Positions 30,207 through 55,504 of a stretch of 61,687 nt of DNA are shown piece by piece (position 1 is the stretch's first letter; the number at the start of each line of letters is the position of its first letter). The stretch spans positions 1 through 61,687 of the forward strand of contig JAEOTS010000028.1 of assembly GCA_016839745.1 (NCBI GenBank), in the 5' to 3' direction. The position numbers and the translations under genes are program-made. The notes under the pieces are model-generated. The model ran no database searches. It saw only the letters and a list, made by a program, of their open reading frames with translations, and was not told the DNA's origin. This DNA is from Promethearchaeota archaeon (GTDB taxonomy: Archaea > Asgardarchaeota > Lokiarchaeia > Sigyniarchaeales > SOKP01).

Positions 30207-30369
30207 AAAAGAATGAGATCTTCCAGAAAATGATAGTGGAAGATTAACAATAGGATAGTGTCCTTTATATTCCTTAATATTTTGAAGATTTTGAAATTAA
30301 TAAATTCTTTTAACTAAATGAAAGAGAGAGAGGAACTTATGGAGAGATATAATACTCTCTAAGACTAAT

Positions 30370-40642: not shown

Positions 40643-40673
40643 TTAATTCTTATCTTTTTTTAAAAAATAAAAC

Positions 40674-40739
40674 ACCCCAACCTTAGCAAGGTTGTCCTTA
40701 TGTATCAACTATTTTTATACATAAGTCATCCAAAGGGGT
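40674..40739 (-). promoter_or_regulatory. SECIS element of selenoprotein 1 (3'UTR)
   Basis: Read on the minus strand: ACCCC, UUUGG, AUGA (40726-40729), a perfect 9-bp stem CUUAUGUAU/AUACAUAAG (40717-40725 with 40697-40705) with an 11-nt loop starting AAAAA, then GA (40695-40696), a small hairpin AACCUU-GCU-AAGGUU and closing GGGGU. AUGA opposite GA below the stem, with unpaired As in the loop, is the layout of eukaryotic SECIS kink-turns. It begins next to the stop codon, where archaeal and eukaryotic SECIS lie (3'UTR). Confidence 0.85.
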
Positions 40740-41252
40740 TTATAACTTTTCATCGATTATGGAAGTCATCATTTCTATAGAAGGCCTATCGGTCTTATCT
40801 TTACCAATATAAGTCCATACGATTTTTCTATCCTTGTTTATCAGAAACTTACTTGGTACCGCTTGTTTAATGTTCAATGTTCCTCCTCCGCCAGGAGCAA
40901 ACCAGTAAACATCGTAATCTTTTGCAATTTTTGCTCCACGATCAGAGATTATATCGACAGTAAAATTATTTTCTTCCTTAAAGTTCTTTAGGAGTCTTTC
41001 GCTGTCGCTTGCGATCGATATTAACTTAATATTTCTTTTCTCAAATTCATTGATATTTTCCGTTAGTAGATATAAATGTTTCTTGCAGTGACTTCACCAA
41101 TTTCCCCGAAAAAAATCGATTAAAACTCCATTGTACTCTTTAAGTAAGTTATCTAAATTTATTTCCTTTCCGTAGATATCTTTTGTATCAAATGCAGGTG
41201 CTATAGAATTCTCTGGTAAACCGCTAGGCCTTGGCGGTTCTTCATTGTTCAT
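40740..41252 (-). CDS. Selenoprotein: peroxiredoxin-like UxxC redoxin (UGA = Sec53)
   Basis: 170 residues when the in-frame TGA at 41094-41096 is read as selenocysteine. The active site is FFRGNW-U53-SH-C56-KKHL, where homologous AhpC/TSA-like redoxins have CxxC after FxRGxW. The frame is intact from ATG (41252) to TAA (40740) with no other stop. Other family marks: PAFDTKDIYGKEINL at the start, LISIASDSERLLKNF and VPSKFLINKDRKIVWTYIG. The SECIS follows directly. It likely reduces peroxides or disulfides in the cytosol. A nonsense mutation is unlikely because the flanking motif and the SECIS are both preserved. Plain gene calling splits and loses it. Confidence 0.9.
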
Positions 41253-54797: not shown

Positions 54798-54844
54798 CTT
54801 ACACATAGAAGATTAAAAAATAAAAGGAATAATAAAAAAAATTT

Positions 54845-54913
54845 GTTTGGTGAGATGTGGCTAACCTTCTAAAAGTAAATATCATTTATATTTTCAATTT
54901 ACTTTTTCCAAAC
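54845..54913 (-). promoter_or_regulatory. Candidate SECIS of selenoprotein 2 (3'UTR)
   Basis: On the minus strand, eleven bases after the stop: outer stem GUUUGG (54908-54913) with CCAAAC (54845-54850) and a 10-bp inner stem AAAAGUAAAU/AUUUACUUUU (54897-54906 with 54871-54880) with a 16-nt A-rich loop. GAA follows the inner stem on the 3' side, as in archaeal SECIS cores, and a 3' branch AGAAGGUUAGCC-like segment precedes the outer stem. The AUGA/GA core seen in SECIS 1 is not evident, so this is less certain. Confidence 0.55.
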
Positions 54914-54923
54914 ATATTATTTA

Positions 54924-55391
54924 TTATATTTTTTCTAATATTTCAAATAGAATTTCATTTTTAGGGATGTCTTGCATGCTATCTCCATAATAAGCGAATT
55001 GAATAATACCTTGCTTATCAATGATTAACATTCCAGGCATCCTTCCTCCTTTGGATAACTTTATCTCTTGATTCAACATTTTGGGAACCTTTTTCGAAGG
55101 ATCATAGTATATTGGATATTTTCGGGCGTATTTTTCTTCCAATTTTTTTGCGTTTTTTTCAGAATCTGCTAAGATTGGATAAAGTACGGTTTCCATCTGC
55201 TCAAACTTCTCGAAATCTTTTCTTAAATGTGCCGCGTGCCATCTACAGTAAGGTCAATTAATGTTTCGAAATAATATGACAACAACTTTTTTTTTACCTT
55301 CAAGAGCTCTTATATTTAGTACCCCGCCTCTCGAATCTGGGAGGGAAAATTCTTGAATTTTCGTACCAACGAGTTGAAATTTATCCTTCAT
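54924..55391 (-). CDS. Selenoprotein: AhpC/TSA-type peroxiredoxin-like protein (UGA = Sec46)
   Basis: 155 residues with the in-frame TGA at 55254-55256 read as Sec. The site is ILFRNIN-U46-PY-C49-RWHAAHL, the place of CPYC or CxxC in related redoxins. The frame is open before it from ATG 55391 (GTG 55400 also possible) and after it to TAA 54924. Other marks: GTKIQEFSLPDSRGG, VLYPILADSEKNAKK, YYDPSKKVPKMLNQEI and GMLIIDKQGIIQFAYYG. A hairpin candidate SECIS follows. It probably reduces peroxides. Read as an ordinary gene, only the C-terminal 90 residues would be called. Confidence 0.85.
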
Positions 55392-55504
55392 CTTCTTCAC
55401 TTTTTTGTAGAATTCTATTATAATTTAATCAGAATTGAATAAATAGTTGCTTTTTATAGATTAAAAAAGAATAAATGTAAAAAAAGAAAAATTTTTAGTA
55501 AAGA

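Follow-up and report, generated by a model that had tools for sequence, protein, structure and literature searches.

The DNA analysed here, a stretch of 61,687 nucleotides referred to below as the window, comes from a Lokiarchaeal MAG that is 89.2% complete and 5.8% contaminated. On its minus strand lies prxL (40740..41252), a gene assigned by a Pfam match and by relatives with TGA to a predicted Prx-like selenoprotein of 170 amino acids, followed by a TAA stop codon. As a preliminary description of this DNA had stated, the frame from 41252 to 40740 is open save for a single TGA, at codon 53 (41094..41096, minus strand), and the terminal TAA (40742-40740). The TGA, a predicted selenocysteine codon, stands in the context FFRGNW-U-SHC, and the UxxC partner of U53, Cys56, is encoded at 41085..41087 (minus strand). 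A predicted SECIS element (40670..40743, minus strand) directly follows the stop codon. A second, distinct gene for a Prx-like selenoprotein, of 158 amino acids and named here UPYC after its active site, is found at 54924..55400 on the same strand.

The prxL product and the conservation of its UGA

The readthrough product of prxL matched the Pfam family AhpC-TSA (PF00578) with E=1.2e-23 and 83.8 bits, for a cut-off of 26, over residues 17-146 and thus on both sides of the TGA. It also matched the Pfam family Redoxin with E=3e-18 over residues 16-160, again spanning the TGA, so that the family-like character previously noted before and after this codon was borne out. No ORF of at least 60 amino acids is present over the prxL span in the standard ORF list of the window, in agreement with the earlier remark that standard gene calling loses this gene. 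A paralogue 73% identical to the window gene lies on contig C28 of the same genome (L111, G000:C28:3000-8000). It is flanked by a gene that, as judged by eye, resembles that of a 3-hydroxyacyl-CoA dehydrogenase, and by related membrane-protein genes, in the same order as between 39830 and 42332 of the window, apparently the result of a block duplication.

A lone in-frame stop in a MAG may raise the suspicion of a sequencing error, with TGA in place of TGC or TGT, or of a pseudogene whose protein stops at codon 52. We therefore give the state of this codon in relatives. Among 58 related genomes, 39 contained some redoxin match. All 27 strong matches (E<=2.5e-19) had one or two in-frame TGA codons, and the weaker ones (E>=3e-7) were mostly ordinary redoxins without TGA. 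Of 23 loci that were decoded, 21 were PrxL, the window included, with 15 UxxC and 6 UxxU sites; the other two (L033 and L036) were UPYC genes. GTDB was also scanned with peptide patterns that avoid the active site. The 32 loci obtained all bear the title of a Candidatus Lokiarchaeota or Lokiarchaeia MAG, and in each of the 32 codon 53 was TGA (27 UxxC and 5 UxxU), followed by conserved protein; this count and the 27/27 above are not independent, because several contigs occur in both sets, and most of the relatives belong to one genus or family. An error or a pseudogene is hardly conceivable in view of this conservation at one and the same codon.

A different amino acid at UGA was also considered, the codon being read genome-wide as tryptophan (code 4) or as another ordinary residue. 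A search of the protein database returned 218 homologues of PrxL. Among the 120 of them that were listed, 40 covered codon 53 and all 40 had Trp there (29 WxxC and 11 WxxW) and none Cys, the other 80 being without the position. This Trp probably arose because the TGA had been translated with the code-4 table. In the window and 28 loci, UGA ends 7 of 86 ATG-started ORFs of at least 100 amino acids by a crude count, and the site matches the Cys, not a Trp, of CxxC redoxins: in seven distant redoxins inspected by eye, it reads GCPxC in three and NTPGC in four. Together with the Sec machinery and the SECIS elements described below, these observations make a reassigned UGA very improbable, and selenocysteine remains the preferred reading of the codon.

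The AF2 model of PrxL, calculated with 25 sequences, had a pLDDT of 91.3 and placed U53 after strand 42-47 and directly before helix 54-65. The top Foldseek matches of this model include Bcp4, PrxQ, AhpE and ResA. PrxL has the fold and the location of the active site in common with BCP/PrxQ and ResA proteins (PDB 2ywn, 3hjp, 2cx3, 4nmu and 1st9), but Sec occurs in neither alignment: position 53 corresponds to the Thr of the BCP/PrxQ TxxC, whose Cys aligns with C56, and to the first Cys of the ResA-type Cys-x-x-Cys. The preliminary description, which placed the TGA at the first Cys of a CxxC, is supported, with the nuance that this Cys is that of ResA-type oxidoreductases and has a Thr in its place in BCP/PrxQ. 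The peroxidatic Cys of true peroxiredoxins is preceded by Thr at a distance of three residues, a place that PrxL fills with Sec in the alignments to 2ywn and 2cx3. Because U53 aligns with the BCP Thr and with the first Cys of ResA, PrxL is more likely a Prx-like selenol/thiol oxidoreductase than a classical peroxiredoxin. The SelL-related redox protein model of NCBIfam (NF040769) was the second-best match of PrxL and the best match of the UPYC protein, but PrxL, which scored 52.6 bits where 120 are required, is not a member by that model.

Selenocysteine machinery of the same genome

The genes to be expected of an archaeal Sec machinery, SepSecS, SelD, EFSec and tRNA-Sec, were found in the genome of the window, EFSec by similarity below the model cut-off; the preliminary description had proposed such a search as a check. 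The SepSecS gene (C150:5822-6766, plus strand) is cut by the contig end. The EFSec-like gene (C150:1367-2257, minus strand) scored 228.6 bits, for a TIGR00475 cut-off of 242. Two tandem selD genes lie on C158 (L112, G000:C158:13000-21000), each with a UGA in the motif [FY]GU[NS]CK, and a SECIS-like hairpin overlaps each of their ends.

The tRNA-Sec gene was identified by DNA similarity directly upstream of SepSecS (C150:5449-5595, plus strand; L110). The Rfam tRNA-Sec model found only tRNA-Gly in this genome, and a genus-level pattern gave no match there, but an 89-base DNA query detected the gene as two pieces. Its anticodon loop is interrupted by 27 nt and its T-loop by 30 nt, with inferred exon borders; without these inserts, 90 nt remain, which form a 9/4 cloverleaf with the anticodon UCA. 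The Rfam model apparently missed the gene because of its two introns. Elsewhere in the genus, the inserts of tRNA-Sec lie in the D-arm and the T-loop instead. A single T-arm intron is known in tRNA-Sec of Lokiarchaeota from the available text of PMC9499178 and PMC5330540, and that of PMC9723677 mentions unusual tRNA-Sec insertions and deletions in some Lokiarchaeia. Neither a two-intron tRNA-Sec nor the combination of D-arm and T-loop inserts is described in the accessible portions of these three articles.

Predicted three-armed elements behind prxL and other genes

From the stop codon onwards, the prxL element consists of CCCC, UUUGG, AUGA, CUUAUGUAU, the loop AAAAAUAGUUG, AUACAUAAG, GA, C, AACCUU-GCU-AAGGUU and GGGG. 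The kink-turn arm (40697..40729, minus strand) starts with AUGA (40729-40726) and has a 9-bp upper stem closed by the apical loop AAAAAUAGUUG; the GA partner is at 40696-40695. This GA is followed by a third, accessory arm, AACCUU-GCU-AAGGUU (40679..40693), and then by GGGG (40675..40678), the 3' half of the lower stem, which pairs with CCCC (40738-40735). The element is a textbook AUGA_GA/AAAAA SECIS with a third, covarying hairpin whose loop contains GC, and is predicted to form a three-way junction. Its 9-bp upper stem, 11-nt apical loop and GA_GA core fall within the definition of a type I eSECIS-like element by Huang 2024 (core 5'-GA_[G/A]A-3', upper stem of 7-15 bp, loop of 8-20 nt), and it likewise shows the AUGA_[G/A]A core of a 3' UTR SECIS and an apical loop rich in A. 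An AUGA scan of the window also returned an AUGA-like hairpin at 30213 on the plus strand, for which no SECIS claim is made.

An Rfam search over the whole window gave no match, and the folding energy of the prxL hairpin alone was weak (z -1.1 to -2.0). We hold the hairpin to be real because of covariation, not folding energy. A covariance model (R1), built from eight relatives with the window sequence left out, was run on 22 sources. It detected the prxL element of the window (E=9.3e-10) as well as others in another 18 PrxL-bearing sources, without a match in two distant PrxL loci (L029 and L031) and the selD locus L112. In the window, only the prxL element was matched up to E=1, and in the whole genome five matches were obtained up to E=10: behind prxL, the C28 paralogue, frhD and two tiny ORFs. 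Of the 20 matching sequences, eight had been used to build R1. In this set of 20, changes on both sides were seen in 18 of 22 pairs, and none of 500 shuffles attained the covariation score. The AUGA_GA core, the 9-bp stem and this covariation support the SECIS-type hairpin reported earlier behind the stop codon. In the third arm, 93.3% of the cells were paired and three of five pairs were doubly changed; the arm is weak in L012. Pair counts were taken from the model-fitted alignments A5, A7 and A10, because in the MAFFT alignments A1 and A2 the arms were shifted by one column from one subgroup to another; the RNA alignments consist of sequences detected by our own models and fitted to these, and lean towards the structure.

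The UPYC product matched AhpC-TSA with E=1.9e-20, and its in-frame UGA (codon 49, 55254..55256, minus strand) stands in the context RNIN-U-PYC. U is present at this site in 26 of 27 decoded loci, the window included; in L058 and L060 the motif is UPYA, and U is lacking in L059. In the SECIS-like element of this gene (54835..54921, minus strand), a lower stem and an A-rich hairpin are accompanied by a third arm, whose loop reads UAGCCA. Within 500 nt of the stop codon of the window gene, no AUGA or GUGA with a GA or AA core was found with up to two mismatches, which sets the element outside the type I eSECIS-like definition; the A-rich apical loop is present. The covariance model of this element (R2) gave 22 matches in 21 of 27 sources at 1e-5, the six without a match being L059, L062, L063, L065, L067 and L068. 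Nineteen of 22 pairs were doubly changed, including all four of the third arm. In 22 of the 27 UPYC loci, UAGCCA is found close to where the gene ends. The 20 sequences of A2 contain it by choice, since they were picked by this motif, and it is also present in two R2 matches outside the picked set, that of L064 and the second of those in L051. R2 found nothing in ten loci with PrxL or selD genes, and R1 found only prxL in the window; the two element classes are therefore distinct at model level.

A third model (R3), made of 20 sequences, was counted at E<=0.1. It gave matches in 48 of the 58 genomes, the ten others being G037, G039, G041, G042, G045, G047, G053, G055, G056 and G057. An R3 element follows the PrxL gene in 31 of the 32 named loci, L266 stopping inside the gene. 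A second SECIS-type element was observed upstream of UxxU PrxL genes in L027 (2099-2173, minus strand), where it lies behind a zinc-ribbon ORF, and in L265 (303-379, plus strand), where it lies behind a tandem PrxL copy. Sixty regions, 59 selected by us from the R3 match list and one from the R1 matches of the window's genome, were classified by pattern according to the gene before the element: 35 FrhD, 10 zinc ribbon, 9 one-helix membrane protein, 4 VhuU and 2 unclassified, of which L234 reads as SelD and L224 stays unclassified. The 61 matches in these regions, one of which (L231) is also a training locus, had a covariation score of 0.721, as compared with 0.210 after shuffling (reached by 0/500) and at most 0.139 after sliding. 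All 22 pairs were doubly changed, a weak measure with a shuffled mean of 20.0 and reached by 9 of 500 shuffles. In the third arm, all five pairs were doubly changed and 83.7% of the cells were paired, and its loop contained GC in 57 of 61 matches and GU in the other four. By inspection, both selD genes of the window's genome have a CCGUU-GCAC/GCUC-AACGG hairpin at the position of the third arm, which was scored by neither R1 nor R3.

Tested one sequence at a time, the third arm was mostly not significant, with p<0.05 in 5 of 21 PrxL-type and selD elements and in 6 of 22 UPYC elements; the case for it is therefore made from covariation and loop conservation. Sec might be inserted while this hairpin serves outside the SECIS, as a transcription terminator or as a stem for mRNA stability, as could be suspected from the T-rich stretch behind the element in many loci, including the window. 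Yet the arm is enclosed by the lower stem and does not adjoin the T-run, its loop keeps GC, and the UPYC arm covaries in every stem pair and holds UAGCCA, also in R2 matches not picked for it. We consider such a separate role unlikely and prefer to regard the arm as part of the SECIS.

Two kinds of very small ORFs precede such elements. The first encodes a zinc ribbon of roughly 37 amino acids (MIxCxxC...CxxC...FK-UGA) and was found before a SECIS-type element in 14 genomes, which do not represent 14 independent events, since 12 of them are from one genus; one example, L143, has its element at G000:C46:57042-57120. The search pattern required FKU and left the next codon free. This codon was TAA in 11 genomes and TAG in the other 3, as compared with a stop in one of seven ordinary ORFs ending in TGA. 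A stop directly after UGA in all 14 suggests that the UGA is a sense codon and Sec the last residue. The second kind, found in 10 loci, encodes about 45-75 amino acids with one hydrophobic stretch and U near the end, with a Cys at most four residues from U in all nine loci read. In most of them U comes after a Gly-rich segment, and the SECIS lies directly behind the ORF; a member in the window's genome is L144/L231 (element at G000:C37:442-495). In layout, these ORFs are reminiscent of eukaryotic SelK/SelS. A search of the protein database with one of the zinc ribbons yielded no homologue at the required word level. Two zinc ribbons and two membrane proteins were compared with NCBIfam, and two of the former and one of the latter with Pfam, in each case without a family match above cut-off. 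Both proteins are absent from the seven Asgard families given in the available text of Huang 2024 (PMC11227280), and the FK-U-stop zinc ribbon and the one-helix membrane protein are apparently undescribed candidate selenoproteins.

Interpretation and comparison with known systems

Based on the conserved frame and UGA, the covarying RNA helices and the Sec machinery genes, we consider it highly probable (about 0.9) that the UGA of prxL is translated as selenocysteine, likely directed by the three-armed SECIS in its 3' UTR. Ser-tRNA-Sec would be converted into Sec-tRNA-Sec by a putative PSTK and SepSecS, with selenophosphate provided by SelD, and would be carried by the EFSec-like factor. Recognition of the 3' UTR element at the ribosome would then place Sec at UGA41094. 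The AUGA_GA kink-turn and the apical A's resemble two features bound by eukaryotic factors, and the GC-loop third arm may offer a further contact, either fixing the junction or binding an archaeal adaptor; the latter is proposed because no SBP2 homologue is known in archaea. In the protein, U53-x-x-C56, located where the predicted helix 54-65 begins, would serve as a selenol/thiol redox centre, in which U53 would attack a disulfide or peroxide and C56 resolve the product.

Going further, we lean slightly towards the view that Lokiarchaeal SECIS elements are three-way junctions with a shared GC-loop second hairpin (the third arm above), that this arm is more universal than AUGA_GA, since the UPYC class keeps it without the AUGA_GA quartet, that it is a possible docking site of an archaeal SECIS-binding factor, and that the elements reveal at least two undescribed families of micro-selenoproteins. 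If true, the three-way junction contradicts the published view, stated in the available text of the review PMC9499178, that Lokiarchaeota SECIS have one apical loop only. According to the accessible part of PMC11881835, archaea have no known homologue of SBP2, their SelB does not bind the SECIS, and the SECIS of a Lokiarchaeal vhuU failed in Methanococcus maripaludis. The conserved arm would be a concrete candidate binding site for archaeal SECIS recognition, and may help to explain this failure if the arm was missing from the construct or its reader from the host. It would also bear on the origin of the eukaryotic SECIS. The element models moreover reach genes that homology-based selenoprotein surveys would easily miss, because the micro-proteins are very small and terminate at the UGA or shortly behind it.

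The gene class itself is not new, since the Prx-like selenoprotein family has already been reported for Lokiarchaeia, in line with the selenocysteine use ascribed to this group in the preliminary description. In the available text of Huang et al. 2024 (PMC11227280), Prx-like is one of five widespread Asgard selenoprotein families, and its first report is credited to a 2016 paper. The Lokiarchaeia PrxL described there is from the same lineage and is likewise peroxiredoxin-like, with a type I eSECIS-like AUGA_GA core and an AAAAA apical loop. The SECIS model of that text runs from an upper stem through the core and an internal loop to a lower stem and, unlike the structure proposed here, mentions no third arm. 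Provisionally, and with PMC11291895 included in the comparison, the third arm of the Lokiarchaeal SECIS is not described in the accessible text of the literature searched. A bacterial Prx-like thiol:disulfide oxidoreductase (PMC13188914, available text) belongs to PF00578 and has Sec in UxxC or UxxU, as do the archaeal relatives considered here, but the bacterial SECIS stands directly behind the UGA, inside the gene (PMC9499178, in the part available), whereas that of prxL is in the 3' UTR. With the eukaryotic type I SECIS, as presented in the available text of PMC11227280, the prxL element shares the AUGA...GA core and the unpaired apical A's; it differs in lying directly behind the stop codon and in carrying an extra hairpin arm on the 3' side of the internal loop.
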